Assembly (NCBI GenBank): GCA_019638615.1
Contig: JAHBTL010000005.1
Coordinates: 1 to 64,000 of the forward strand
Direction: 5' to 3'
Length of the DNA stretch: 64,000 nucleotides
DNA from: Chitinophagaceae bacterium
Lineage (GTDB): Bacteria; Bacteroidota; Bacteroidia; Chitinophagales; Chitinophagaceae
A program made the translations under genes and the position numbers. Shown piece after piece: positions 65 to 48,450 of the stretch. The notes under the pieces were generated by a model. It made no database searches. It had not been told where the DNA came from and saw nothing but the letters and a program-made list of their open reading frames with translations. The number at the start of each line of letters is the position of its first letter. The stretch's first letter is position 1.

Positions 65-1519
65 CTATTCTCCTGCTATATCCGCTCTTCCCTTCTTTCC
101 CCAACTCTTGTGTTTTGCACCGTCCATTTTTACTATTTTAGGCGTAAACTTTCCCACAACATCTACAAGGGCTTTTTGTGATTGCATTACCACATCAATG
201 TCTTTATACGCGAAAGGAGATTCATCCAAACCGCCTCCCAGCAATTTCACACCAAACTTTTTCAGCTCCTCTTTAAACTGCTTATCGGTTACGGAGCTCA
301 TGGCTTTGGTACGGCTCATTTTCCTGCCTGCGCCATGCGAAGCGGAATTAACGGCAGCCGGTTCTCCTTTGCCTTTTACAATAAATCCATCGGCCGTCAT
401 TGATCCCGGTATAATACCCAGCACATTCTTACCTGCAGGTGTAGCGCCCTTGCGGTGGACGATCACTTCTTTTCCTTCCCACTGTTCTTTCCACGCGAAG
501 TTGTGATGATTTTCGACCATCTTCATGAGTGTTCGTCCCAATTGCTTCGCAATTTTTTCATGTATCACATGATGGCAGGCAGAAGCATAATCGCCCGCCA
601 GGTTCATCGCCTTCCAGTATTCTATGCCTTCTTCTTCATCCAGCGATAGCCAGGCAAGATTTTTGGCTTCCTGCGGCAAGCGTCTTTTGCTGATGGCGAG
701 CCTGGTATAGTGATTGGCAATATTGGCACCCAACGCCCGCGAACCGGAATGTGTTAAGAACCCTACATACTTACCGGCGTCAACGCCTAAAATTTCATCC
801 TTCTCCGCTACCTCGATCACGCCAAATTCCGCGAAATGGTTTCCCGAACCGGAAGATCCCAGTTGCTTCCACGCGCGCCCGTGAAGATTTTTGAGTAATG
901 GCAACTGGTAAAACAATTCATTGTCCATCACTTCATTATCAGCAACGCGGTCAAATTGAGCCCCGCTCCCAAACAAAGTGGCTTCGCCCAGCTCTCTGGC
1001 AAAAAAAGATTCTTTATCAGTCAGCTCTTTCGGGTTGATATCGAATATGCTCAAACCCATACGGCAACCAATATCCACACCTACGCCATAAGGTATTACC
1101 GCATTATCCGTTGCCAGTACGCCACCTATCGGTAAGCCATAACCGCTGTGTGCATCGGGCATTAATGCCCCGGCTACAGATACCGGTAGTTTTGCTGCCT
1201 GGTACATCTGGTGCATGGCGCCTTCTTCAATATGTTCCTGCCCGAATACATTGAACTGTATACCCGTTTGATTTAATGAAACAGATTCTCCCTCCAGCAA
1301 TTCTTTCTTTGGCATCAACTTTTCCGCGATCAACCCTAATACCGCGTCTTTTTCGTATTCTACAGGCGCAGCGAGTATTTTCTTCAATAATTCCATCACA
1401 TCCTCCTTTGCTTCATGCTTATAATTTTTTTGTATCACGTTCATTGCAACACTGATCACAGGACCTTCAGGATAACCGATTGCCCTTAATTCCTTTCCTG
1501 TTAATTTTAATTTGCTCAT
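65..1519 (-). CDS. rtcB: RtcB-type tRNA-splicing/RNA-repair ligase
   Basis: 484-residue RtcB, the usual length. RtcB joins RNA 2',3'-cyclic phosphate or 3'-phosphate ends to 5'-OH ends using GTP and Mn2+. All metal and nucleotide motifs are visible: GVDIGC (Cys152), SGSGNHF (His228), HSGSR (His257), NHHNF (His338/339) and the guanylylation motif SHGAGR (His395). It stands alone, with no archease or RtcA next to it. The start is supported by a CATCTTTG -7-like box at 1540-1547. A perfect 21-bp palindrome at 1556-1576 lies 8 nt upstream of that box and recurs upstream of the slipin/tRNA-like RNA unit, so RtcB is probably under the same regulator, plausibly the WYL protein at 13059. Function assignment is secure; the physiological substrate is not known from sequence. 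Confidence 0.97.
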   Translation of the reverse strand: MSKLKLTGKELRAIGYPEGPVISVAMNVIQKNYKHEAKEDVMELLKKILAAPVEYEKDAVLGLIAEKLMPKKELLEGESVSLNQTGIQFNVFGQEHIEEGAMHQMYQAAKLPVSVAGALMPDAHSGYGLPIGGVLATDNAVIPYGVGVDIGCRMGLSIFDINPKELTDKESFFARELGEATLFGSGAQFDRVADNEVMDNELFYQLPLLKNLHGRAWKQLGSSGSGNHFAEFGVIEVAEKDEILGVDAGKYVGFLTHSGSRALGANIANHYTRLAISKRRLPQEAKNLAWLSLDEEEGIEYWKAMNLAGDYASACHHVIHEKIAKQLGRTLMKMVENHHNFAWKEQWEGKEVIVHRKGATPAGKNVLGIIPGSMTADGFIVKGKGEPAAVNSASHGAGRKMSRTKAMSSVTDKQFKEELKKFGVKLLGGGLDESPFAYKDIDVVMQSQKALVDVVGKFTPKIVKMDGAKHKSWGKKGRADIAGE

Positions 1520-9977: not shown

Positions 9978-10122
9978 CAGGATGCTAAGTCCTGTGCGTC
10001 TACCAGTTTCGCCATCCCTTTTGAATCGGGAGCGGGAATCGAACCCGCACTTTTCTGTTGCTCTACCACTGAGCTATCCGCCTGCGGCGGAAAGGGAGTT
10101 GAACCCCTGACCCACAGATTAA
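9978..10122 (-). ncRNA. tandem circularly permuted tRNA-like RNA
   Basis: Minus-strand order of tRNA arms, unit 1: anticodon-stem 3' strand TCTGT (10114-10118), T arm AGGGG-TTCAACT-CCCTT (10092-10108), acceptor strands TCCGCC and GGCGGA closed by a GCA triloop (10077-10091), D arm (10060-10074), anticodon-stem 5' strand ACAGA (10054-10058). ACAGA pairs with TCTGT, so the cloverleaf closes but its ends lie in the anticodon loop. Unit 2: T arm GCGGG-TTCGATT-CCCGC (10032-10048), TCCC/GGGA stem, Leu-type D arm (9996-10013), full anticodon arm with loop CTTAGCA (UAG, Leu; 9978-9994). No normally ordered tRNA fits. The complementarity argues against random debris. Transcription probably starts near 10320 and may continue into the slipin gene. 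Confidence 0.6.
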
Positions 10123-39813: not shown

Positions 39814-40593
39814 TTATGATTTCAGCCTGATATTAACCATCAAAGGCAAATGATCGGAATAATGCACTACAGGGGCTGAAACTTTTTCTACCCGGCGCAA
39901 TGCTTTCGGGCTTACTAATACATAATCGATTTTTTTAACCGGCGTATCGTCCGGAAAAGTAGGAAGACCGGATCTATCTGTTGTTTGCAGGTGTTGCTGC
40001 AGCAATTGAATTTCTTCTGCATCAGGTGTTGCATTCAAATCGCCGGTAAAAATTACCGGCAAATTATTTTCTGAAAGATAATGCAGGGTTTCATTCACCT
40101 GGGAAGCTCTGATTGCTTTATCAAAAGCGGAATAATGTGCTGTGGCAAAAAGAATTTTCTTTTTTCTTTTTATTGGTATAGTGGCAAAAAGCATGGAAAC
40201 AGATTCGCCATTGGGTCCTTTCTTTAAAAGCTTTAATATTTTAGGCTCCACTTTTGCTATCGGGTATTTGGAAAGTATTCCCACTCCGTAAGCGCCACCC
40301 TGGTAGGGAAAATGTCTTACAAAAGCATAGTGCATACCGGTGATCTCTGCCAGTCTTCTTATCTGGTCAACTTTTCCCGATCGTTCGCATACGCTGTCCA
40401 CTTCCTGCAGTCCCACGATATCCGGATTTTGTTGCCTTATGAAATTCCCCATAGAGTCCAATGTATTGATCTCATTCCTGTCAGCCCCGTGATGTATATT
40501 GTAAGACATGATCCGCAACTGCTGTGATCGTGCATTCAAAAAAGATAAGCTGAATAATAATGTGCAGAAGCAGTGTTGTATTGCTTTGCTCAT
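39814..40593 (-). CDS. secreted endonuclease/exonuclease/phosphatase-family hydrolase
   Basis: 259 residues with a signal peptide (ends ARSQ). EEP motifs: MSYNIHHG, DIVGLQEVD, FTGDLNATP and YSDHLPLMVNI. The family includes nucleases, sphingomyelinases and phosphoinositide phosphatases, so substrate is open. Its ATG overlaps the TGA of the small upstream gene by 4 nt, showing translational coupling. Confidence 0.9.
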   Translation of the reverse strand: MSKAIQHCFCTLLFSLSFLNARSQQLRIMSYNIHHGADRNEINTLDSMGNFIRQQNPDIVGLQEVDSVCERSGKVDQIRRLAEITGMHYAFVRHFPYQGGAYGVGILSKYPIAKVEPKILKLLKKGPNGESVSMLFATIPIKRKKKILFATAHYSAFDKAIRASQVNETLHYLSENNLPVIFTGDLNATPDAEEIQLLQQHLQTTDRSGLPTFPDDTPVKKIDYVLVSPKALRRVEKVSAPVVHYSDHLPLMVNIRLKS

Positions 40594-40775
40594 TTAATTC
40601 TATATGGCTTTCGTGTTATTACTGCTTTTTGCATTGTCAGGTGTATTTTATACAAGCGGGCGGCCATTAAAAACCTTTCCTTATAAGAGCGTTTCAGCGC
40701 CTCTCTTAAAAGATCATCTCCGGCCTTTTCGTATCCGTATGCGGGCTCCTGTACTATATTTTTTTCCCGGGACAT
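40590..40775 (-). CDS. small conserved-looking protein of unknown function (61 aa)
   Basis: Reads MSREKNIVQEPAYGY then DDLLREALKRSYKERFLMAARLYKIHLTM. Amphipathic and basic; overlaps the EEP gene in the ATGA configuration, which is the main reason to believe it. The first seven codons of the longer frame (from 40796) could also be used. No function proposed. Confidence 0.55.
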   Translation of the reverse strand: MSREKNIVQEPAYGYEKAGDDLLREALKRSYKERFLMAARLYKIHLTMQKAVITRKPYRIK

Positions 40776-40839
40776 CTCTTGTAGATTTAGCCACAAATAC
40801 TGATTGCAATTTAATAAAAATATAGCAAATACTGATTAA

Positions 40840-40870
40840 GGGTTTCCAACCTTCCGAAGGTTGGAAACCC
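40840..40870. repeat. palindromic dispersed repeat, third copy
   Basis: GGGTTTCCAACCTT and its complement in a 31-bp palindrome. It lies after the AAA ATPase gene and before the small gene, where a terminator for the tRNA-array operon would be expected, although no long T-run follows. Confidence 0.65.
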
Positions 40871-40921
40871 TGCAAATCCAGAAAAGGCCGGCGTTGGGTA
40901 GCCGCCAGTCTTTGTTTTTGA

Positions 40922-42070
40922 TCAATTCACTGAATTTTGTTGCCTGAACCCAATTGGATGAATGCCTGTTTCTGGCCCATTAATTATATGCTGGTTCACT
41001 ATTTCGGCAATTGTCATCGGCGCATATATGGCCGCATCAAATCCTAAATGGTTGGACAGTTGCTGCGCTTTTTGTACACTCAGCTTACCAAACTCGTACC
41101 TTGCTATCATTCTTCCCTTTCTCATCAAAGCGTTGTCTATCAGGTTCAGGTTGCTGTTGAAGGTGCATATGATCTGCACATTCAAACAATCGCTCAGCAA
41201 TCCATCACTCAGGTTAAGCAGGTTTGAAACTGAAGAGCCGCTGTTGATCTTACGATCCATCATAATGTTTTCAGCATCTTCTATTACCAGCACCGCATTG
41301 GGGTTGTTGATCAACAGATCAATAAACTCCGGGTTCATCAAATTGCCGGCAACGGACGGCGATAAGAACATCACTTTTTTCTTCAGGGTTCCTACCAGGT
41401 GACGCAGGTAGGTTGTTTTACCGGTGCCGGGTATACCGTGCAGCAAAACAATGCCCTTGTCATTTTCAGTATTTAACCTGCTCCTTATTAAGGCATCAAC
41501 GGGTAAGAAATCATCATTGTAATGCAAATCCAGATCCAGCACCGTTGGTTTTAACGGAAGCGGCTTTAACTCCAGCCCTCCGTTGTTGAGCGTGATAATA
41601 TTGATCTCAAAATCCTGCTGTTTTTCAGGCACCTTATATTCAGAAAGCGCTTTCAGAAGATTATCTGCAAAACTGTATTTGTTATTTGCATATAATACTT
41701 CCGCATATTGCCCTGCCAGCTCAATGATTACCTTATTGCTCAGCACAAAAATGGTTTTATTGAACTGCTGCATATTTTCCTTCCTGTTAAAAAAACAATC
41801 CTGGAAAATGTCTACTATATCATTCCCCAGATTGTTTTGTATATAAGCATATGCCCTGGTAACATCCATTTCGTCAATATATGTTGTGCAAGGTACACGC
41901 CTGAACCTGAACATGTAAAATGCTTTTGCTTCAATATACTGGTGATCAAATATTGACGGATTTCTTTTGACATATATTCTTGCCCAAATGCTTTGCATTT
42001 TTGCTTTCGGGTGTGTATTATTCAACAGTACCACAAAAGCTATAACAATTAATATTGATAGTATGCTCAT
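40922..42070 (-). CDS. membrane-anchored AAA+ ATPase (BCS1-like core)
   Basis: Start ATG 42070 lies 11 nt after the YkuK gene and gives 382 residues; the longer frame overlaps that gene by 65 nt. An N-terminal transmembrane helix (residues 2-17), a middle domain without recognised homology (20-190), then an AAA core: Walker A GIPGTGKTT (212-220), Walker B LVIEDAE (261-267), sensor-1 TFNSN and the arginine segment RKGR. The BCS1-like layout suggests remodelling or translocation of a macromolecule. Last gene of the tRNA-array operon; its role there is unknown. Confidence 0.82.
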   Translation of the reverse strand: MSILSILIVIAFVVLLNNTHPKAKMQSIWARIYVKRNPSIFDHQYIEAKAFYMFRFRRVPCTTYIDEMDVTRAYAYIQNNLGNDIVDIFQDCFFNRKENMQQFNKTIFVLSNKVIIELAGQYAEVLYANNKYSFADNLLKALSEYKVPEKQQDFEINIITLNNGGLELKPLPLKPTVLDLDLHYNDDFLPVDALIRSRLNTENDKGIVLLHGIPGTGKTTYLRHLVGTLKKKVMFLSPSVAGNLMNPEFIDLLINNPNAVLVIEDAENIMMDRKINSGSSVSNLLNLSDGLLSDCLNVQIICTFNSNLNLIDNALMRKGRMIARYEFGKLSVQKAQQLSNHLGFDAAIYAPMTIAEIVNQHIINGPETGIHPIGFRQQNSVN

Positions 42071-42080
42071 AACAGTTGTT

Positions 42081-42596
42081 TTAATGTACCACTTTATTGG
42101 CGCAGCTTGAGCTGGCAAATGCGTGAGGCTTTGCTTTAAAAGCAAACCCCATTCCCATAATATATCCCATCGCTTCTTTTAAAGCATCATTGCTTTTAAA
42201 GCTGGGGTTAGTATTAATGTCAACATGCACTTCCATATCTACGCTATATCTGGAAAAGATGTTACACAATGCATAAGCCACTTCAATGCTCTTTCCCACT
42301 TCAGTAAGCATCCTTTGTTTAATGCTCATTTTTTGCCGAGTGGTTTCGTTGTGGATATACATAAAACCACCCTTACCTTTACGGATGAATACAATAACGG
42401 TAGCGTATTCAGTGATCTTTCTCTGCCCGGATGACCCGTTCGGACGGGCTTTTACCTGGCTGTCTGTACCAATGCAGACCTTCAGTTCGTGCCCGGCCTC
42501 TCTTTCACGCATCAATACATGAGCCACTTCCTCCTCAATCGGGATCCTGATCCTTTCGCCATTTAGTTTTCTCCATTGTTGCTGTACCTGTTCCAT
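42081..42596 (-). CDS. YkuK/DUF458 RNase H-fold protein
   Basis: 171 residues. The family hallmark GTDSQVK (residues 43-49), an acidic/His segment around VHVDIN and the conserved RMLTEVGKSIEVAYAL helix indicate the YkuK (DUF458) branch of the RNase H fold, whose members are predicted nucleases. Located between the basic unknown protein and the AAA ATPase, downstream of an RNA ligase and tRNA genes, so an RNA-processing role is attractive but unproven. Confidence 0.78.
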   Translation of the reverse strand: MEQVQQQWRKLNGERIRIPIEEEVAHVLMREREAGHELKVCIGTDSQVKARPNGSSGQRKITEYATVIVFIRKGKGGFMYIHNETTRQKMSIKQRMLTEVGKSIEVAYALCNIFSRYSVDMEVHVDINTNPSFKSNDALKEAMGYIMGMGFAFKAKPHAFASSSCANKVVH

Positions 42597-42614
42597 TGGT
42601 CATTGTTTTAAAGT

Positions 42615-43373
42615 TTATTCTATTGCCTCCTGTTGAAGGATATCCAACACCTGGCAAAGCGATTTGTTTTTATAAGGATTAATTTCATCATGCCTTTCAA
42701 TGTTTTTCCATTTCCACCAACGATCTCTGTGTCGCCTGTGAAGAATTTTATCCATACGTTTTTCTAAATCCCGTCTTTTAATATAGTTGTCTAACTGATC
42801 AATCTGTGATTCCAGCGCCGCATCTTTAATTCTTACCTTGTCAATCATGTTCGGCCGTACGCTCATTACAAAGCGCCAGGGCTCAGTAAACACATATCGT
42901 TTTACAGGCTGGCTGCACCATTTTTCATACCTGAACTCTATGTTGAACAATTGTTGCTCGCTATCCGTAAAACATAGTTTCTTAAAATGTTGCTCATCTG
43001 GCTCAAGAAGCTTCTGAGGTTTTACCACGTATATCTTTCGTCCAAACTTTCTTCTCTTCACTTTAAAATCCCTCTTTGAGCTCCAGTCGTATGTATTGAT
43101 TTTACTGAGTATATTTTGAAAAAATACTGCATGCTTACCTCTTGCCACATCATCTCTTAAAACAAAAAAACGTTTCCATCCTTTTTGCACGGGCGGTATT
43201 AAAGGCTCCCAACCCAAATTCCCTTTTTTTACCCATAGCTCGCGGCGTTTTCTATCAAGCTGTATCAATTGTTTATCAAAATCTTTGTACTGCATACGGT
43301 GCTTTTGCCTTGCAGAACGAAGCCGGTAACAGAGCATATCTTCTCCGTAATGTTGAATAAGTTTTGTGTCCAT
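42615..43373 (-). CDS. basic protein of unknown function in the tRNA-array operon
   Basis: Start at ATG 43373 (MDTKLIQHYGEDML) gives 252 residues; the frame opens 13 codons earlier. Very rich in Lys/Arg and aromatic residues (RRKFGRKIYVV, DKILHRRHRDRWWKWKNIERHDE), as in nucleic-acid-binding proteins; no motif recognised. First protein gene after tRNA-Trp and 18 nt before the YkuK-like gene, so it is co-transcribed. It could be an RNA-binding partner of the ligase or of the array tRNAs. Confidence 0.75.
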   Translation of the reverse strand: MDTKLIQHYGEDMLCYRLRSARQKHRMQYKDFDKQLIQLDRKRRELWVKKGNLGWEPLIPPVQKGWKRFFVLRDDVARGKHAVFFQNILSKINTYDWSSKRDFKVKRRKFGRKIYVVKPQKLLEPDEQHFKKLCFTDSEQQLFNIEFRYEKWCSQPVKRYVFTEPWRFVMSVRPNMIDKVRIKDAALESQIDQLDNYIKRRDLEKRMDKILHRRHRDRWWKWKNIERHDEINPYKNKSLCQVLDILQQEAIE

Positions 43374-43475
43374 AATGAATGGTTTTGTTCCGTTCGAAAA
43401 CTGTTGTGCCATTGCACATTTTCTCTGTCTGTCATTATGAACTTTAGGTTCTTTTTCATATTACTTTTATTTTTG

Positions 43476-43568
43476 CACGGGTTGCAGGACTCCCCGCCTG
43501 CCGGGCGGGCAGGGAACCTGCGGCAATGGTTTTGGAGACCATTATGTTGCCATTTACACCAAACCCGT
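43476..43568 (-). tRNA. tRNA-Trp(CCA) with 21-nt palindrome in the T loop
   Basis: Acceptor ACGGGTT/AACCCGT, D arm, anticodon arm ATGGT-CTCCAAA-ACCAT, T stem GCAGG/CCTGC. Length 93 instead of 72 because 43493-43513 sits between TTC and GAGT of the T loop. CCA not encoded. Five nt separate it from tRNA-Phe. Confidence 0.8.
43493..43513. repeat. GC-rich palindrome inserted in tRNA-Trp T loop
   Basis: 21 bp, minus strand CCTGCCC..GGCAGGCGGG. It differs at one position from the insertion at the same T-loop position of tRNA-Asn (45771-45791). Confidence 0.8.
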
Positions 43569-43573
43569 ATGCG

Positions 43574-43646
43574 CGGTGCCCAAAGGAATCGAACCTTCTT
43601 AACCGGATTTTCAGCCCGGCACATAGACCATATCTGTCAAAGCACC
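43574..43646 (-). tRNA. tRNA-Phe(GAA)
   Basis: Acceptor GGTGCTT/GGGCACC, anticodon arm CCGGG-CTGAAAA-TCCGG (GAA), T arm GAAGG-TTCGATT-CCTTT. 73 nt, uninterrupted. D stem is only about 3 bp. CCA not encoded. Confidence 0.8.
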
Positions 43647-43714
43647 ATTTGTTTGTAATGAATATTGACAGATCACCGATTCCTCTTCATCGAATTCATT
43701 CATCACAAACAATG

Positions 43715-43799
43715 CGGAGAGTAAAGGGATTGAACCTTTGTACCGTTTCCGGTAGCCTGGGTTTAGCAAACCTGCACATTACCACTCTGTCAACTCTCC
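43715..43799 (-). tRNA. tRNA-Ser(GCT)
   Basis: Acceptor GGAGAGT/ACTCTCC, anticodon loop TTGCTAA, long variable arm TACCG-GAAA-CGGTA typical of Ser, T arm AAAGG-TTCAATC-CCTTT. 85 nt, uninterrupted, CCA not encoded. The outer base pairs of the anticodon stem are mismatched. Confidence 0.8.
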
Positions 43800-43847
43800 G
43801 TATTTTTGTGTTATCAACTGTATTGCTACTATCAGCTTATGTTGTAG

Positions 43848-43868
43848 CCTGTCCCGCCGGGGCGGATC
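43848..43868. repeat. GC-rich palindrome between tRNA genes
   Basis: CCTGTCCCGCCGGGGCGGA, related to the insertion in the tRNA at 46102. It lies in a 180-nt stretch between the two Ser tRNAs that also holds hairpins GTGCTTCA/TGAAGCAC and CCGAT/ATCGG. Confidence 0.6.
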
Positions 43869-43979
43869 ACTTGCTTGTGCTTCAACAATACTATTCAACT
43901 GCTCATGAAGCACCCCGATGAATATCGGCGGTACGTTCTGTTTACTATTCAGCAAATTGCAACCAGTCAATATCATCAG

Positions 43980-44117
43980 CGGAGAGAAAGAGATTACTCA
44001 CGGCATGTCTATTTTATTTTTGTGTTCGTGATTTCCGCTTCGCTCCAATTCGAACCCCTGAACCTTTTACAGTCAACTGTTTTCAAGACAGCGTCCTTGG
44101 CCAACCGGACTCTCTCC
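43980..44117 (-). tRNA. tRNA-Ser(TGA), T arm interrupted
   Basis: 5' two thirds clear at 44048-44117: acceptor GGAGAGA, anticodon arm GCTGT-CTTGAAA-ACAGT (UGA), long variable region, AGGGG-TTCGAAT. The matching T-stem strand CTCTT and acceptor TCTCTCC appear only after about 53 further nt (ending at 43980). Either a large T-loop insertion or a broken gene. CCA not encoded. Confidence 0.5.
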
Positions 44118-44137
44118 ATTTGTTTTTCCGTTTGCTA

Positions 44138-44588
44138 GGGCTGACCAAAAAGGTCGTCATTGCGATCCGCCGCGGCGGAGAAGCAATCCCAAATACTTAA
44201 TCCGTTATCGTTCAATGGGATTGCTTTCCCGACACAGTCGGGATTCCTCCCTGCCAATGACATATCATCCAGTTTGCTATTTATCAACTGGTTATGAACT
44301 TCAATTTGTTGTTCCACAAACCCGGTTTTCCTTTCAACTACAATCCCACCGCTTTTTTCTGTTACTTTTTTGCGGAAAAAAGTAACCAAAAAGCCGCCGG
44401 GAAATTATTACCGCAATTTCCCGCAACGCTCTGATGAAGCTTTAGTACTACTGTGAATTCAGCAACAGAGCCCTGATACGTTTGCTGATAACTTAGCCGA
44501 CTTAGGATACTTACAAATCAGAAAGCTGTGACAAACAAATGCAACTTGTCACGGCGCAATGACGTTCAGCGACCTTTTTGGTCAGCCC
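44138..44588. mobile_element. MITE-like element inside the tRNA array
   Basis: 451 bp bounded by perfect inverted repeats GGGCTGACCAAAAAGGTCG (44138-44156 and 44570-44588), extended by TCATTGCG/CGCAATGA just inside. No transposase. Contains a perfect hairpin GTTAC-TTTTTT..AAAAAA-GTAAC at 44361-44386 and two 'gggattgctt' repeat units. No clear target duplication. Confidence 0.7.
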
Positions 44589-44621
44589 CACTATATGTTC
44601 TCCGGAGATTATATCTCCTTG

Positions 44622-44705
44622 TGTGAGTGGTAGGATCCGAACCTACTCAGCGTAATAGCAACGGTGTTACAGACCGTCCCGGCTCTCCCACTCCGGCGCA
44701 CTCAC
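44622..44705 (-). tRNA. tRNA-Tyr(GTA)
   Basis: Perfect acceptor GTGAGTG/CACTCAC, D arm, anticodon arm ACGGT-CTGTAAC-ACCGT, Tyr-type long variable arm and T arm GTAGG-TTCGGAT-CCTAC. 84 nt, uninterrupted, CCA not encoded. First tRNA after the RNA ligase gene (47-nt gap). Confidence 0.85.
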
Positions 44706-44752
44706 ATATATAAATTTGTGGCGGAGGCGCACTCCGCCACATCTGCCTCCCT

Positions 44753-45733
44753 TTACTCATCATAACTAAGCAAGAACTTATTGTTGATGGCCTTAAATGA
44801 TACCAACTCATTTGCTATTTTCACACGTATTACAATACCCTCTGCTAATACATCTGCGTTCAATACAGATTTTCTTTCAGCCATTTTTAACAAAACATCA
44901 ATATCATCAGCCAATGCAAAGCTTTTCTCCAAAACGGGTACGGTTTCTAATCCTATCACTCCAAATACTTCCTTCCATTCGTCATACCCGGCATATTTAT
45001 ATTCATCTATCCAAAAAAGGGTAAAGAAAAAAACGCTATTTCCTTTTAACTTTAACTTATTTCCCTGGATGCTCTCACCAACCAGCTCTCCTTGTATAGC
45101 AACATTTCTATTCAGTGACCTCAGCTTGTCTTCTATTGCCAGGTGCTTTGCTGTTTGCCAGTATACGCTGTCAGCATTTTCTACCAATTCCATATTTCTG
45201 CTACATACTCCAAACCCGCCGTCCTTTATAAAAAATGTTACTGACGTACCATCCAGCTTTTCGGTTATATAATATTCTTTACCTTTATGTTTAGAAAGTT
45301 CATCTTGCATTACCTGCACCCTCGTTTCATCTGTTTTAGGTATAAAGGATGGAAACTCAGCTTTCTTTACTCCCGCAATTGAATCCGGAACAGGAGGTTC
45401 ATATTTTACAACACCAAGTTCTTCTGTTACATCCATGCCCTCTTCAGCCGCAAAACTCTTAGACAGAATACTTAACGGAAAACAAATTCCCTGGGAAACC
45501 TGACCTCTTAGCTTCACTGTCTTGATACGAAACTTCATTTTTCTTAAAAACTCAAACTCCGTTTTTTCAGGAAGCAGGCTGTCAATTTCAACGTAAACAC
45601 AGAGATCATTTATTTTGAACTCATCCTTCTTTACCACTAATGACCATCCCAATACCGTCGCTTTTACAATAGCATCAGCTCCTTCAATAGGCTCGAGGTT
45701 TTTTATTCTTTGTATGCTTGCCAGTTTTCTCAT
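44753..45733 (-). CDS. Rnl5/DRB0094-type ATP-dependent RNA ligase
   Basis: Start ATG 45733 (MRKLASIQRIKNLEPIEGAD), 326 residues; the longer frame runs into tRNA-Asn. An N-terminal OB-type domain (residues 1-~110) precedes the nucleotidyltransferase domain, the reverse of DNA ligases and typical of the Deinococcus DRB0094 (Rnl5) group. Motif I is KLDG (Lys159 nucleophile), with CSRN, GELVGE, a FFFTLFWID segment, motif IV EGIVIR (298-303) and motif V SFKAINNKF (Lys314). This class seals 3'-OH/5'-phosphate nicks in RNA duplexes. It lies between tRNA-Asn and tRNA-Tyr and is co-oriented with both, so tRNA is the obvious candidate substrate (inference). Confidence 0.9.
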   Translation of the reverse strand: MRKLASIQRIKNLEPIEGADAIVKATVLGWSLVVKKDEFKINDLCVYVEIDSLLPEKTEFEFLRKMKFRIKTVKLRGQVSQGICFPLSILSKSFAAEEGMDVTEELGVVKYEPPVPDSIAGVKKAEFPSFIPKTDETRVQVMQDELSKHKGKEYYITEKLDGTSVTFFIKDGGFGVCSRNMELVENADSVYWQTAKHLAIEDKLRSLNRNVAIQGELVGESIQGNKLKLKGNSVFFFTLFWIDEYKYAGYDEWKEVFGVIGLETVPVLEKSFALADDIDVLLKMAERKSVLNADVLAEGIVIRVKIANELVSFKAINNKFLLSYDE

Positions 45734-45753
45734 ACATTCATTTTTTATTATTG

Positions 45754-45846
45754 CGGATGAAGAAAGACTCCCCGCCTGCCGGACGGGCAGGGAACTTTCA
45801 ACCCCTGGCTTAACAAGCCACCGCTCTGCCATTGAGCTATTCATCC
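45754..45846 (-). tRNA. tRNA-Asn(GTT) with 21-nt palindrome in the T loop
   Basis: Acceptor GGATGAA/TTCATCC, D arm, anticodon loop TTGTTAA, T stem GAAAG/CTTTC. The T loop is split between TTC and GAGT by 45771-45791, the same position as in tRNA-Trp. 93 nt, CCA not encoded. Confidence 0.82.
45771..45791. repeat. GC-rich palindrome inserted in tRNA-Asn T loop
   Basis: 21 bp, minus strand CCTGCCCG..CGGCAGGCGGG; one difference from the tRNA-Trp insertion. Confidence 0.8.
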
Positions 45847-45850
45847 ATTG

Positions 45851-45923
45851 TTGGCCCGGTGAGACTCGAACTCACAACCTTCCGGTTAAAAGCCGGAAGC
45901 TCTTACCATTGAGCTACGAACCA
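45851..45923 (-). tRNA. tRNA-Lys(TTT)
   Basis: Acceptor TGGTTCG/CGGGCCA, D arm GCTC/GAGC, anticodon arm TCCGG-CTTTTAA-CCGGA, T arm GTGAG-TTCGAGT-CTCAC. 73 nt, canonical, 4 nt from tRNA-Asn. CCA not encoded. Lys tRNA is the classic target of the PrrC/RloC anticodon nucleases. Confidence 0.9.
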
Positions 45924-45929
45924 ATTCTG

Positions 45930-46018
45930 TTGCGGCGGCCAGAATCGAACCAACAACTTCTACTTTGTAACAGTAGATATCTTCCCTGTCCGGCAGGCAG
46001 GCATTGAATTAAGTCGGC
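45930..46018 (-). tRNA. tRNA-Val(TAC)-like, D loop interrupted, acceptor unpaired
   Basis: Anticodon arm CTACT-GTTACAA-AGTAG (UAC) is good. The D loop carries an 18-nt palindrome (45984-46001). The 5' end GCCGACT does not pair with the 3' end CGCCGCA and the T stem is mostly G-U, so it looks like a chimera of two tRNAs. Confidence 0.5.
45984..46001. repeat. GC-rich palindrome inserted in tRNA-Val-like D loop
   Basis: 18 bp, minus strand CCTGCCTGCCGGACAGGG; same family as 46443-46463. Confidence 0.7.
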
Positions 46019-46023
46019 CTTTG

Positions 46024-46096
46024 TGATGACTGATAGAATTGAACTACCAACCTTTACGGTATCAGCGTAATGCTCTGCCAATTGAGCTAAGTCATC
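46024..46096 (-). tRNA. tRNA-Ile(GAT)
   Basis: Perfect acceptor GATGACT/AGTCATC, D arm, anticodon arm TTACG-CTGATAC-CGTAA, T arm GGTAG-TTCAATT-CTATC. 73 nt, uninterrupted, CCA not encoded. Confidence 0.88.
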
Positions 46097-46101
46097 GTAT
46101 G

Positions 46102-46193
46102 TTGCGGCTAAGGGAGTCGAACCCATAGCTATGGCTGCCGCCTGTCCCGCTATCAGCGGAAAGACCATTGAGCTACCATTACTCTAAACCGCA
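46102..46193 (-). tRNA. tRNA with 21-nt palindrome in the anticodon loop (Gln, Pro or Glu)
   Basis: Acceptor TGCGGTT/AGCCGCA, D arm GAGT/GCTC, anticodon stem ATGGT/GCCAT, T arm ATGGG-TTCGACT-CCCTT. The anticodon loop is 28 nt (46136-46163) instead of 7. Removing 21 nt leaves UUG, UGG, CGG or UUC as anticodon depending on the border. U1-A72 favours Gln(UUG). Confidence 0.65.
46136..46163. repeat. palindrome-bearing anticodon loop
   Basis: 28-nt loop containing the hairpin CCGCT-GAT-AGCGG followed by GACAGGCGG; related to CCTGTCCCGC at 43848. Confidence 0.7.
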
Positions 46194-46309
46194 TTCTTGT
46201 AAGCCTGACCAGATTAGTAACTTCACATTTATTTTTTTGTGTTCCTGAACTCCTATTTGTCCTGGTTCGAACTATTACTGAATAGTTCTAAAACGATTGT
46301 CTCTACTGG
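46194..46309 (-). other. structured spacer in the tRNA array, no tRNA recognised
   Basis: Holds the perfect hairpin GAACTATT-CAGT-AATAGTTC followed by a GAAC/GTTC hairpin. It may be a decayed tRNA; no cloverleaf could be drawn. Confidence 0.4.
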
Positions 46310-46382
46310 TTGACCTGGCCAGACTCGAACTGGCAACCTTTAACATATAAGATTACTGCTCTTACCATTGAGCTACAGGTCA
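46310..46382 (-). tRNA. tRNA-Ile(TAT)
   Basis: Perfect acceptor TGACCTG/CAGGTCA, D arm GCTC/GAGC, anticodon arm GTAAT-CTTATAT-GTTAA (UAU; one mismatch at the stem base), T arm GCCAG-TTCGAGT-CTGGC. 73 nt. UAU is rare in bacteria, which normally read AUA with a lysidine-modified CAU tRNA. Confidence 0.75.
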
Positions 46383-46386
46383 GTTG

Positions 46387-46473
46387 TGCTGGCTTAACAA
46401 GAGTCGAACTTGTACCGCTTCATCCGTAGTGAAGCATTCTATCCCTGCTGTCTGGCAGGCAGGTAAAGCCAAC
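46387..46473 (-). tRNA. tRNA-Arg(ACG) with palindrome replacing part of the D arm
   Basis: Acceptor GTTGGCT/AGCCAGC, anticodon arm CTTCA-CTACGGA-TGAAG (ACG), T arm ACAAG-TTCGACT-CTTGT. The D arm region carries 46443-46463 and has lost its own 5' strand; the palindrome CCTGC/GCAGG could mimic a D stem. 87 nt, CCA not encoded. Confidence 0.75.
46443..46463. repeat. GC-rich palindrome in tRNA-Arg D arm
   Basis: 21 bp, minus strand starting CCTGCCTGCC and ending GCAGGG. Confidence 0.75.
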
Positions 46474-46484
46474 ATTTTTGCATG

Positions 46485-46557
46485 TAGTCTGTACCAGATT
46501 CGAACTGGTATCATCAGGTAGAAAACCCGATATCCTGAACCCTTAGACGAACAGACC
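46485..46557 (-). tRNA. tRNA-Glu(TTC)
   Basis: Acceptor GGTCTGT/ACAGACT, Glu-type D arm, anticodon arm TCGGG-TTTTCTA-CCTGA (UUC), T arm ACCAG-TTCGAAT-CTGGT. 73 nt, uninterrupted. Position 37 is U rather than a purine. First tRNA of the array. Confidence 0.85.
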
Positions 46558-46754
46558 GTTGCGGACAGCCCTGGTTCAACCGGGAGCATGCTGCTATGTT
46601 TTGAAATAATCATGATCAAAGAACTAAGCCCGTTTTGGAAAAAGCATCCCCGTTGTTGCATCTCTTCCGCTTGCATCGAAACGAACGGGGAATACTTGTT
46701 TCCCTCCCTTTCTGCACCTGATATTTTTACCTCCACTCTGTAGAGATCACAAAA

Positions 46755-46783
46755 AAGCCCGGTCATTTTTTGTGACCGGGCTT
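46755..46783 (-). terminator. attenuator terminator 2 of the tRNA-array operon
   Basis: Perfect 11-bp stem AAGCCCGGTCA/TGACCGGGCTT followed on the minus strand by a T-run. It comes 22 nt after the stop of the second leader ORF. Its 5' arm can pair instead with UGGCCGG (46822-46828) and UAUGCAU (46811-46817) inside that ORF. Confidence 0.8.
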
Positions 46784-46804
46784 ATGCATTATCTTTTATT
46801 CAGA

Positions 46805-46966
46805 TCATGTATGCATACATTCCGGCCATGAATAATTACTTTCATACGCATTACCTGTGGGCACAATACCTCCTTTGTTCTGCGCACACCATTGGCGTAT
46901 GACGGATGATAGCGCATTATTTAATATCAGTGTTCTAAACCGTTTATATCGTGATTGTTTTATCAT
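46805..46966 (-). CDS. second leader peptide ORF (53 aa, 19 of 20 amino acids)
   Basis: ATG 46966 lies 11 nt after the T-run of terminator 1; stop TGA at 46805. The peptide lacks only Asp and uses four different Arg codons, three ATA and two TGG. Near its 3' end the segments UGGCCGG and UAUGCAU are complementary (one G-U pair) to the 5' arm of terminator 2 and the sequence just before it, so stalled versus completed translation could switch the terminator. I read it as a tRNA-sensing leader rather than a functional protein. An internal GTG with an AAAGGAGG upstream (46855 region) is an alternative start in the same frame. Confidence 0.6.
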   Translation of the reverse strand: MIKQSRYKRFRTLILNNALSSVIRQWCAQNKGGIVPTGNAYESNYSWPECMHT

Positions 46967-46983
46967 TTCTATTTAATAAAAAA

Positions 46984-47002
46984 CCCCGCGATTCAGGCGG
47001 GG
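46984..47002 (-). terminator. attenuator terminator 1 of the tRNA-array operon
   Basis: Stem CCCCGC/GCGGGG (extendable by G-U and A-U pairs) followed by TTTTTT on the minus strand. It starts 28 nt after the stop of leader ORF 1. Its 5' arm GCCCCGC can pair with GCGGGGC at 47050-47056 inside leader ORF 1. Confidence 0.82.
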
Positions 47003-47030
47003 CTTATATTTGAGCGATTTTGTTTTTACA

Positions 47031-47126
47031 CTAATCAACAGCATTATATGCCCCGCAAACTGTATAGCCCACCTCAGGACTAAACCAGCTTATTGATTTG
47101 ATATGTACTAACATCGTGCGTTGCAT
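47031..47126 (-). CDS. leader peptide containing all twenty amino acids (31 aa)
   Basis: ATG 47126 to TAG 47031. In order the peptide reads M,Q,R,T,M,L,V,H,I,K,S,I,S,W,F,S,P,E,V,G,Y,T,V,C,G,A,Y,N,A,V,D: every standard amino acid occurs at least once in 31 codons. Random 31-mers with even usage would miss about four types (20 x 0.95^31), more with real usage of Trp, Cys, Met and His. Codons for every tRNA in the downstream array are present (CAA, CGC, GTA, ATC, AAA, TCA, ATA, AGC, TGG, TTT, GAG, TAT, AAT). Codons 24-26 (TGC GGG GCA) carry the antiterminator strand for terminator 1. It starts about 20 nt after a good promoter. No Shine-Dalgarno, as usual in this phylum. Confidence 0.72.
   Translation of the reverse strand: MQRTMLVHIKSISWFSPEVGYTVCGAYNAVD
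47050..47056 (-). promoter_or_regulatory. antiterminator strand inside leader ORF 1
   Basis: Minus-strand GCGGGGC is fully complementary to GCCCCGC (46997-47003), the 5' arm of terminator 1. After one A-A mismatch the pairing continues for four more bases (UAUA), giving 11 pairs, at least as stable as the terminator stem. Confidence 0.65.
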
Positions 47127-47145
47127 ATGATTTGTTTTGCGAGTG

Positions 47146-47177
47146 CAAAGGTTGAATGATTTTTTTTACAATACAAA
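47146..47177 (-). promoter_or_regulatory. promoter of the tRNA-array operon
   Basis: TTTG (-33, 47174-47177), 20-nt spacer, AACCTTTG (-7, 47146-47153; 7/8 of TAnnTTTG). The spacing fits the Bacteroidota housekeeping promoter. A start site near 47140 would give a leader of about 14 nt before the 31-codon ORF. Confidence 0.65.
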
Positions 47178-47466
47178 TTTTTTGTCGAATTTTTTTTAAC
47201 TTTTTAAATGCTTTGGTAATAAGCGGGAAGTGATTGTTTGGACTGGATCTTCTTTGCGGAGATCATGAACCCATTTTATTACCTCTATCAGGGCTGATTA
47301 AAAAGGGAAATGAAGGTTCTGAGAATTGCTTAAACGACTACCGGTCTCCATCACCTATCCGAATAAATCCGACATCAGATAGTCTTTGGATCTGTCCCCC
47401 GGCAGCCTCCTGCTATGCTTTTGCAGGCGCTCCATTCACATATAAAGCGTAGAAAAATTATTTTAT

Positions 47467-48450
47467 ATGTGCTTGAAAATTAATTGTTTGAAAAAAATGC
47501 TTTTCCATATACTCAACTTTTGTTGTGAAAGCCTGTATATTATCAAATGCTGCCTATTTTTAATTCCCGAAAATTGCAAAGTGTTCAACTTCAACGAATA
47601 TATTGTAGATGCTCCCGGTATTTGTCACCGGATCAGTTGTGGCGATTCTCTTTTTTCCGTCTATACATGCCCGTTAGATCAAAAATCTGTAGATATCTGG
47701 AGTCATAATAATTATATAGTGTATGTAACTGAAGGACGGAAGATATGGCATACAACCCAGGGTTCGTACGATTTGCAGGCGGGTAGTTGTGTCTTCATTC
47801 GTCGGGGCGCCGCGATAATCGAACAATTCGCAGGGCCTGGCTTCTGTTTTTATCTTTTTTTTGTGTCAGATGAATTTATTTGTGATGTATTAAAAACAAA
47901 AGCAACTGCCCTTCCTCCTGCAGGAAAAAAATATCATTCCGTTATTCATATTGAAAGCAGCGAGGCAGTACATTCCTATTTCAAATCAATGCTTCCCTAT
48001 TTCAATGCTCCGCAAGCTCCCGATCAATCACTATTACAATTAAAATTCAGAGAGCTGATTCTCCTGCTGGCAGATAACAAGGACAATGAGGAGTTGTTAT
48101 GCTATTTCTGCACTTTGTTAAAATCTCCGCAAAGGGTTTCATTGCAAACCGTGATGGAAGATAATTTCTGCTTTAATTTAACGCTTGAGGATTTTGCAAG
48201 ATTGAGCTACCGCAGTTTATCAGCGTTCAAGAGAGACTTCGAACAGGTATACAATACTTCACCGGGTAAATGGCTGATAGAAAAAAGATTGCATCACGCT
48301 AAAAACCTGCTCACCATAGCCGGCAAATCTGTAAGTGATGCAGCTTTTGAAAGCGGGTTTGAGAGCAATGCTCATTTCAGCAGAGCTTTCAGCAAACAAT
48401 TTGGTGTGCCTCCTTCGGCGTTAAAGAAACAAATAGCAGTTTTGAACTGA
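47467..48450 (+). CDS. AraC-family transcriptional regulator
   Basis: 327 residues as drawn. The N-terminal ~30 residues are Cys/Leu-rich and doubtful, so the start may be downstream (an ATG at 47497, or a non-ATG codon). Cupin-like sensor (YIVYVTEGRKIWHTTQGSYDLQAGSCVFIRRG) and C-terminal double HTH (FNLTLEDFARLSYRSLSAFKRDFEQVYNTSPGKWLIEKRLHHAKNLL; VSDAAFESGFESNAHFSRAFSKQFG). Divergent from the tRNA-array operon and 90 nt before the methyltransferase gene, its likelier target. Confidence 0.88.
   Translation: MCLKINCLKKMLFHILNFCCESLYIIKCCLFLIPENCKVFNFNEYIVDAPGICHRISCGDSLFSVYTCPLDQKSVDIWSHNNYIVYVTEGRKIWHTTQGSYDLQAGSCVFIRRGAAIIEQFAGPGFCFYLFFVSDEFICDVLKTKATALPPAGKKYHSVIHIESSEAVHSYFKSMLPYFNAPQAPDQSLLQLKFRELILLLADNKDNEELLCYFCTLLKSPQRVSLQTVMEDNFCFNLTLEDFARLSYRSLSAFKRDFEQVYNTSPGKWLIEKRLHHAKNLLTIAGKSVSDAAFESGFESNAHFSRAFSKQFGVPPSALKKQIAVLN

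Follow-up and report, generated by a model that had tools for sequence, protein, structure and literature searches.

The window analyzed here, a 64,000-nucleotide stretch of a Chitinophagaceae bacterium contig, carries on its minus strand a leader composed of two tandem modules, followed by an operon that includes a tRNA array and an RNA ligase gene. The promoter (47146..47177), with TTTG at 47177-47174 and AACCTTTG at 47153-47146, was called by sequence on the basis of what we take to be the Bacteroidota consensus. Just downstream lies ORF1 (47031..47126), a frame of 31 codons that encodes all 20 residue types (MQRTMLVHIKSISWFSPEVGYTVCGAYNAVD, then a stop codon). Codons 24-28 of ORF1 hold arm 1 (GCGGGGCATATA, 47045..47056), which is complementary, with one mismatch, to the 5' half of intrinsic terminator 1 (46981..47005) and the bases preceding it, and codons 1-19 or so form the predicted sensing window. 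The second module consists of ORF2 (46805..46966; 53 codons and 19 residue types, with no Asp), arm 2 (TGGCCGG, 46822..46828, ORF2 codons 47-49), which is complementary to the 5' half of intrinsic terminator 2 with one G-U pair, and this terminator itself (46755..46783). An earlier note on this DNA had described the ORF with all twenty amino acids at 47126-47031 and placed it shortly after a Bacteroidota-type promoter and ahead of an intrinsic terminator; translation confirmed the former, and both flanking signals are seen in the sequence.

In the operon, likewise on the minus strand, the tRNA array (43573..46557), with eight tRNAs recognized by ARAGORN and others decayed, is interrupted by the RNA ligase gene (44753..45736; PF09414 with a PF21189 OB-fold). 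It is followed by genes for a 265-aa protein without a Pfam match (42615..43412) and an AAA ATPase (40922..42145; PF00004), both recurrent in these operons, and for an RNase H-like protein (42081..42596; PF04308), a recurrent neighbor of the arrays. In total, 47 tRNA matches were counted in the window genome, including those of the array. By eye, array tRNAs (43500-46560) carry GC-rich palindromic inserts of the CCTGCC..GGCAGG type; several are no longer recognized as tRNAs. The array looks decayed, while the leader is intact. A partial tRNA-like match (35 bits) lies far from the array, at 10029-10079 on the minus strand. That ORF1 contains a cognate codon for each tRNA of the array, as also claimed earlier, holds by reading for the eight tRNAs recognized by ARAGORN, but it follows almost of necessity when an ORF contains all 20 residue types, and the other tRNAs look decayed.

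A search of window positions 40000-48000 against Rfam yielded no family above threshold for the leader, and T-box was absent among the 15 matches up to E 1; there were, however, sub-threshold matches to Trp_leader and Thr_leader, one over each module. A random 31-mer of the window composition would contain all 20 residue types with a probability of ~0.0007 (mean, 15.4 types), and, of the window's 225 maximal ORFs with lengths of 25-31 codons, ORF1 alone contains all 20, ~0.15 such ORFs being expected by chance. By itself, the window ORF1 is thus only mildly improbable and constitutes weak evidence; its relatives are decisive.

Distribution of the leader in Chitinophagaceae

Among 12 genomes of the genus, including the window genome, three others have a well-conserved leader DNA (90-92%) and a fourth a divergent one (69%); the remaining matches are short and weak. 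In another genome of the genus (G199, locus L020), both leader ORFs are kept, with 18 and 20 residue types, and no tRNA array or ligase was found within the 20 kb of this locus.

When the RNase H-like protein was used as a query, 360 of the 394 family genomes gave matches; these include housekeeping copies, and a top group stands out by its higher identity. From these matches, 60 loci were taken, mostly from the top and some lower ones picked by eye, which together with the window and five earlier loci make up a first set of 66; ARAGORN detected no tRNA in eight of these. The ORFs were assigned by a rule that used similarity to three leader peptides, length, and terminators but not residue counts. 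All three reference peptides contain 20 types, and the rule for ORF2 favored lengths near 52, so that some pull towards the consensus is possible. Under this rule, ORF1 was found in 61 of the 66 loci and ORF2 in 59. No ORF1 was assigned in L096, L107, L113, L114, and L115, although ORF-plus-terminator pairs had been detected in L096, L107, and L113, and no ORF2 in L098 and L105. Short ORFs are thus present at related Chitinophagaceae loci, where the earlier note had proposed to look for them, and their residue types exceed those of shuffled controls (0/2000 column shuffles). ORF1 spans 27-33 codons and ORF2 29-59 (median 51), and the order is mostly promoter, ORF1 (~30 codons), terminator 1, ORF2 (~51 codons), terminator 2, and an operon with a tRNA array, RtcB, slipin, AAA, or RNase H-like genes. 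A CTTTGC or TTTGC element precedes ORF1 in nearly all 61 leaders, with exceptions such as L020 and L082; the strict pattern TAnnTTTG matched few of the 61.

An RNA model of the leader (R1) matched 136 of the 394 family genomes and 50 of the 101 sampled genera at E 1e-6. In other families of the order, R1 gave weak matches only (best E 2e-6), many of them over the terminator part alone. A DNA pattern combining arm and terminator retrieved 30 records, labeled Chitinophaga, Niastella, Lacibacter, Longitalea, Paraflavitalea, or with less precise Bacteroidota names, which yielded 13 new ORF1s with a mean of 17.92 residue types. At four other ligase loci of the family (L028-L031; 54% identity or less), no leader was seen by eye in the 900 bases upstream and no tRNA was found; two of these genomes carry leaders elsewhere. 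In locus L168, two leader matches lie 1.3 kb apart (at about 600 and 1876) ahead of an AAA gene, the first with just 13 types.

For the genes downstream of the leader, we took 60 R1 loci outside the first set (20 + 40, from among the matches listed) and searched within ~4 kb after each leader with tblastn (E 1e-5), some loci being cut at contig ends. ORF1 was read in 58 of the 60. RtcB followed 22 leaders, at least two tRNAs 23, slipin 13, and AAA 28; altogether, 53 of the 60 leaders were followed by tRNAs, RtcB, slipin, AAA, RNase H-like, or 265-aa protein genes, and seven by no searched gene. Pfam confirmation was run on four RtcB and three SPFH/Band 7 proteins. Judging from gene neighborhood alone, the tRNA array, rtcB, slipin, and AAA genes appear to be grouped under this leader.

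The rtcB gene of the window itself (92-1519, minus strand) encodes a protein 67% identical to a leader-linked RtcB of another locus (L160); it has an apparent promoter of its own, and no such leader was found in the sequence read upstream. Across the class, 24 of 30 RtcB loci gave a readable frame. A short ORF plus terminator within 700 bases upstream of RtcB was found in five of the 24 (L203, L208, L209, L223, and L230), and none of them resembles the leader. One of these, L203, is the window rtcB, where a 53-codon ORF (17 types) and its terminator end before the apparent rtcB promoter, and they were read as the preceding gene. In L208 and L209, from related genomes of another family of the class, a similar 25-codon ORF with 15 types is followed by a terminator and then RtcB, possibly an unrelated attenuator of a similar kind.

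Arm-terminator pairing and predicted switching

In the first set, the arm lies almost always within codons 20-28 of ORF1 and can pair with the 5' half of terminator 1, with a mean duplex score of 23.8 versus 14.8 after shuffling and a score of 18 or more in 58 of the 61 loci. In an alignment of 53 of the 61 ORF1 leaders (A2; eight divergent or odd-length ones were left out by hand), the seven core pairs of arm 1 are standard pairs in 43-53 of the 53 leaders, and 12 both-sided changes, located at four pairs, compare with 5.6 in shuffled alignments (reached in 2/500). The covariation is nevertheless modest: the percentage paired was reached by 45/500 shuffles, the covariation score by 11/500, and the count of pairs changed on both sides by 224/500, and some slid versions of the arm equal the both-sided changes. 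Thus, covariation of arm 1 alone is too weak to carry the case. The stem of terminator 1 is conserved, with changes on both sides at four pairs. The ORF2 arm lies ~7 codons before the stop in many loci, with both sides changed in some lineages (L093, L103); its score is less distinct (19.2 versus 15.9 shuffled), and in a number of loci the best duplex falls outside the arm. An antiterminator arm predicted to be mutually exclusive with the terminator is therefore found for ORF1 and is present, if less distinct, for ORF2.

We folded the nascent RNA with the 3' half of the terminator still unmade and the ribosome masking 16 nt upstream and 14 nt downstream of the A site at 30 C, both footprint and temperature being assumed. 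For ORF1, the arm-terminator pairing probability was 0.88-0.99 for stalls at least 12 codons before the stop and below 0.4 for stalls 1-11 codons before it; for ORF2, it was 0.90 for a stall 14 codons before the stop and had dropped to 0.35 for one 10 codons before it. With the ribosome exactly at the stop codon, the values were 0.88 (ORF1) and 0.55 (ORF2). In the untranslated leader, the arm is predicted to pair upstream, as it would in a possible protector (1:2) hairpin, with a mean probability of 0.72 (ORF1) or 0.37 (ORF2), but once the 5' half of the terminator was present, the arm-terminator pairing reached 0.96-0.97. As the arm is free to pair with the terminator in this state, blocked initiation should switch the operon on.

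Folding at equilibrium, with the complete terminator in place, gave a different picture. For ORF1, the mean terminator probability was 0.66-0.81 for stalls 21-30 codons before the stop and 0.89 or more thereafter, with 10-34% of loci below 0.5 for stalls up to 21 codons before the stop; in the window's own ORF1, it dropped to 0.08-0.19 for stalls at codons 3-8. For ORF2, it was 0.96-0.99 at every stall position. The equilibrium model thus predicts no switch for ORF2 and, at most, a partial one for ORF1, and because the terminator mostly wins at equilibrium, the switch must be largely kinetic.

Taken together with the codon content described below, this anatomy probably represents a tandem ribosome-mediated transcription attenuator in which the codons before the arm are kept non-redundant and serve as a sensor for shortage of nearly any tRNA. 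Under normal translation, the ribosome would sit on the arm, toward the end of the ORF, as the polymerase makes the terminator, and the terminator would form. The inducing signal would be a tRNA that is cleaved, uncharged, or depleted: a ribosome requiring it at a codon before the arm would stall there and leave the arm free to pair with the 5' half of the terminator before the 3' half is made, and transcription would continue. A stall at a codon within or after the arm would, however, favor termination. With maximally non-redundant codons before the arm, scarcity of nearly any tRNA could be registered. As the two modules are in series and each is varied on its own, read-through would be needed at both (a presumed AND logic), and the output would be spare tRNAs together with RNA-repair or translation-stress proteins.

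Codon variety before the arm

On average, ORF1 contains 18.23 residue types (n=61) and ORF2 19.17 (n=59), or 17.52 (27 peptides) and 19.02 (45 peptides) after dereplication at 60% identity. These means exceed those of other ATG ORFs of equal length (14.5 for the 455 compared with ORF1 and 16.98 for the 152 compared with ORF2), draws from the leaders' own composition (15.3 and 17.95), shuffled nucleotides (15.22 and 17.59), and the other five frames (14.85 and 16.86). Column shuffles, which keep the preferences of each site and break the make-up of each peptide, gave 16.86 for ORF1 and 18.36 for ORF2, and 0/2000 reached the observed mean in either; the excess persisted after dereplication and with shuffles within clusters. 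Furthermore, in simulations of site-independent evolution on the tree of the RNase H-like protein, which allow for kinship (60 and 58 loci; L020, without an RNase H-like protein, was left out), 0/1000 reached the observed mean for either ORF. A residue lost at one site tends to be present at another.

The literal full alphabet, in contrast, is not conserved. All 20 types occur in nine of 61 ORF1s and 29 of 59 ORF2s, and the union of both ORFs is complete at 49 of the 59 loci. No Trp occurs in 31 of the 61 ORF1s, and Cys and Ala lie mostly in or after the arm: 26% and 44% of ORF1s, respectively, have them among codons 1-21. Among the held-out leaders found with R1, the first 21 have a mean of 17.29 types in ORF1, with ORF2 present in 14 (mean 18.0), and ORF1, read in 38 of the 40 later loci, has a mean of 17.66; some of these leaders contain just 13-15 types.

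The excess is confined to the codons before the arm. With the four columns preceding the arm dropped to allow for the ribosome footprint, the pre-arm part of ORF1 (~19 codons) has 14.98 types versus 13.30 in column shuffles (z 14) and that of ORF2 (~40 codons) 18.54 versus 17.17 (z 9.5), whereas the codons from arm to stop show no excess over column shuffles (6.16 versus 6.17 for ORF1; 6.73 versus 6.69 for ORF2) and likewise none over the tree simulation. This was replicated in 57 distinct ORF1 peptides from the 60 R1 loci (two loci without an ORF and one duplicate peptide were left out), with 13.77 versus 12.49 types before the arm (z 10) and 6.19 versus 6.18 from arm to stop; none of these peptides is identical to one of the first set, and they were held out for the test, but R1 was trained on ORF1 sequences, and the peptides therefore depend on the family consensus. 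When ORF1 was scanned in windows of 8 columns, those beginning at columns 1-16 showed a clear excess (z 2.7 to 6.4), which weakened from column 17 onward and had disappeared at columns 20-21; shortness of the arm-to-stop part thus does not explain why it shows no excess. The fading near columns 17-20 falls about where the folding model sets the switch (12 versus 11 codons before the stop).

We found no compensation between the blocks before and after the arm (659/2000 permutations reach the observed value), and ORF2 does not make up for the residues that ORF1 lacks (union 19.78 versus 19.87 in permuted pairs; 1985/2000 reach it). For these two reasons, we rejected a full alphabet of the whole ORF as the selected trait and put non-redundancy before the arm in its place. 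A union below that of permuted pairs is as expected for two serial terminators that each need a sensor of their own, and shared decay would have the same effect. The limitation of the excess to pre-arm codons indicates that selection maintains a codon set rather than a peptide, and on the alignments available the selected property is taken to be the non-redundancy of the codons before the arm, in both ORFs.

This confinement bears directly on the main alternative, a general attenuator of translation inhibition, which any ribosome stall, for example one caused by an antibiotic, would induce irrespective of codon content. The anatomy and the folding model serve such a device equally well, and a similar tRNA operon, the trn operon of Anabaena, is reported to respond to translation antibiotics (PMC10272220). 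However, this explanation gives no reason for set-level variety limited to the pre-arm codons of both ORFs, and we consider it improbable.

Codon usage is relevant to a second alternative, namely, that varied codons serve smooth translation at uniform speed, ensuring that the ribosome reliably reaches the arm; non-redundancy could, by inference, also limit local depletion of a single tRNA. With residues fixed, ORF1 has 25.69 distinct codons versus 24.24 expected from pooled synonymous usage (0/300 reach the observed value), but with site usage kept, the synonymous variety is weak (10/1000 reach the observed value for ORF1 and 192/1000 for ORF2), a point against the sensor reading. CTA, ATA, and TTA are over-used relative to the long ORFs of the same loci (in ORF1, CTA 26% versus 5% and ATA 49% versus 24%). 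In the pre-arm part of ORF1, His (5.5% versus 2.1%) and Trp (2.7% versus 1.3%) exceed the background, as do Cys, His, and Trp in ORF2. Favoring codons that are uncommon in the same loci, together with these residues, is the opposite of speed tuning. This objection is weakened by the AT-richness of the leaders, from which the over-use of CTA, ATA, and TTA perhaps partly results, and by Cys, which lies below background before the ORF1 arm (0.6% versus 0.9%). On balance, smooth translation appears very unlikely as the explanation.

Amino acids whose tRNAs are frequent in the arrays tend to be the ones that ORF1 uses among its codons 1-19 (Spearman 0.53, p 0.016, 20 points), a suggestive correlation based on 32 arrays with at least six tRNAs, in which detection of decayed tRNAs is incomplete. 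A tRNA-Ile with anticodon TAT is unusual in bacteria. The arrays (L021, L062, L069, L087, and others) often encode this tRNA, with 21 copies over the loci, and the leaders over-use ATA.

It is slightly less probable still that the leader encodes a conserved functional peptide, either an arrest peptide or one acting in trans, with its variety a coincidence. ORF1 does have a recognizable consensus and a length near 30, but its variety exceeds that in column shuffles and tree simulations that keep the site preferences, ORF2 is far less conserved yet as varied, and the CGA that is conserved in ORF1 falls on the RNA arm. Finally, a chance ORF in an ordinary terminator region, for which one could point to the ~0.15 expected in the window, is refuted by the conservation, the held-out replication, and the null tests, and its probability is close to nil.

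Relation to known regulatory systems

Attenuators of the trp, his, and thr type comprise a short leader ORF, alternative pairing of an arm and a terminator, and an intrinsic terminator ahead of the operon; they sense one or a few amino acids, the codons of which are repeated in the leader. The Chitinophagaceae leader shares this anatomy. Unlike these attenuators of biosynthesis operons, however, it avoids codon repeats before the arm and would sample nearly all tRNAs, and its output consists of tRNAs and RNA repair. It can thus be regarded as a variant predicted to work like an attenuator, in which the repeated control codons are not found. The universal tRNA-availability sensor envisaged in the earlier note stands in modified form: the anatomy of a putative stall-sensing attenuator, the apparently selected codon variety, the tRNA and RNA-repair genes, and the occurrence in 50 of 101 genera speak for it, but the leader usually comprises two modules and is also found ahead of RtcB, slipin, and AAA genes.

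In gene content, the operons resemble the TrcR regulon of Anabaena, in which a 26-gene trn tRNA operon, rtcB, slipin, and an AAA ATPase are reported to be under the TrcR repressor, and the trn operon is normally silent and induced by translational stress or translation antibiotics (PMC10272220). Control in this cyanobacterium is exerted by an RHH repressor protein, unlike in the Chitinophagaceae leader, and that text mentions neither 'leader' nor 'attenuation' (PMC10272220). Likewise, the rsr-yrlBA-rtcBA RNA repair operon of Salmonella, controlled by RtcR and induced by broken tRNAs, shares the RtcB output and the tRNA-damage signal with the system proposed here, but senses through a protein that binds tRNA fragments and not through leader translation (PMC7790460). 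The tandem attenuators of Salmonella mgtCBR also have two short ORFs per leader that are expected to control transcription; they belong to a different operon, and the start of the abstract states no codon-set property (PMC3641672). Among the matches listed for open-licence papers (titles and abstract starts), there was no leader that samples all amino acids or serves a tRNA array. By analogy, the Chitinophagaceae leader looks like a protein-free answer to the problem that the Anabaena and Salmonella systems meet with protein control.

To conclude, the leader is probably a multi-input attenuator in which the codon set rather than the sequence is conserved, with two serial sensors for the scarcity of nearly any tRNA, governing a family-wide regulon of tRNA replacement and RNA repair that matches the Anabaena system in gene content. 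To our knowledge, it would be the first regulatory leader with the codon set, not the sequence, as its conserved trait. It offers a clear example of selection that acts on a set of residues and not on a sequence. Ordinary conservation scores overlook this kind of signal, which could be looked for elsewhere. If this interpretation is correct, a leader that samples nearly all tRNAs would provide a direct readout of the weakest link of translation, and damage to any tRNA could activate silent operons of spare tRNAs and RNA-repair genes with no need for a protein sensor of their own.
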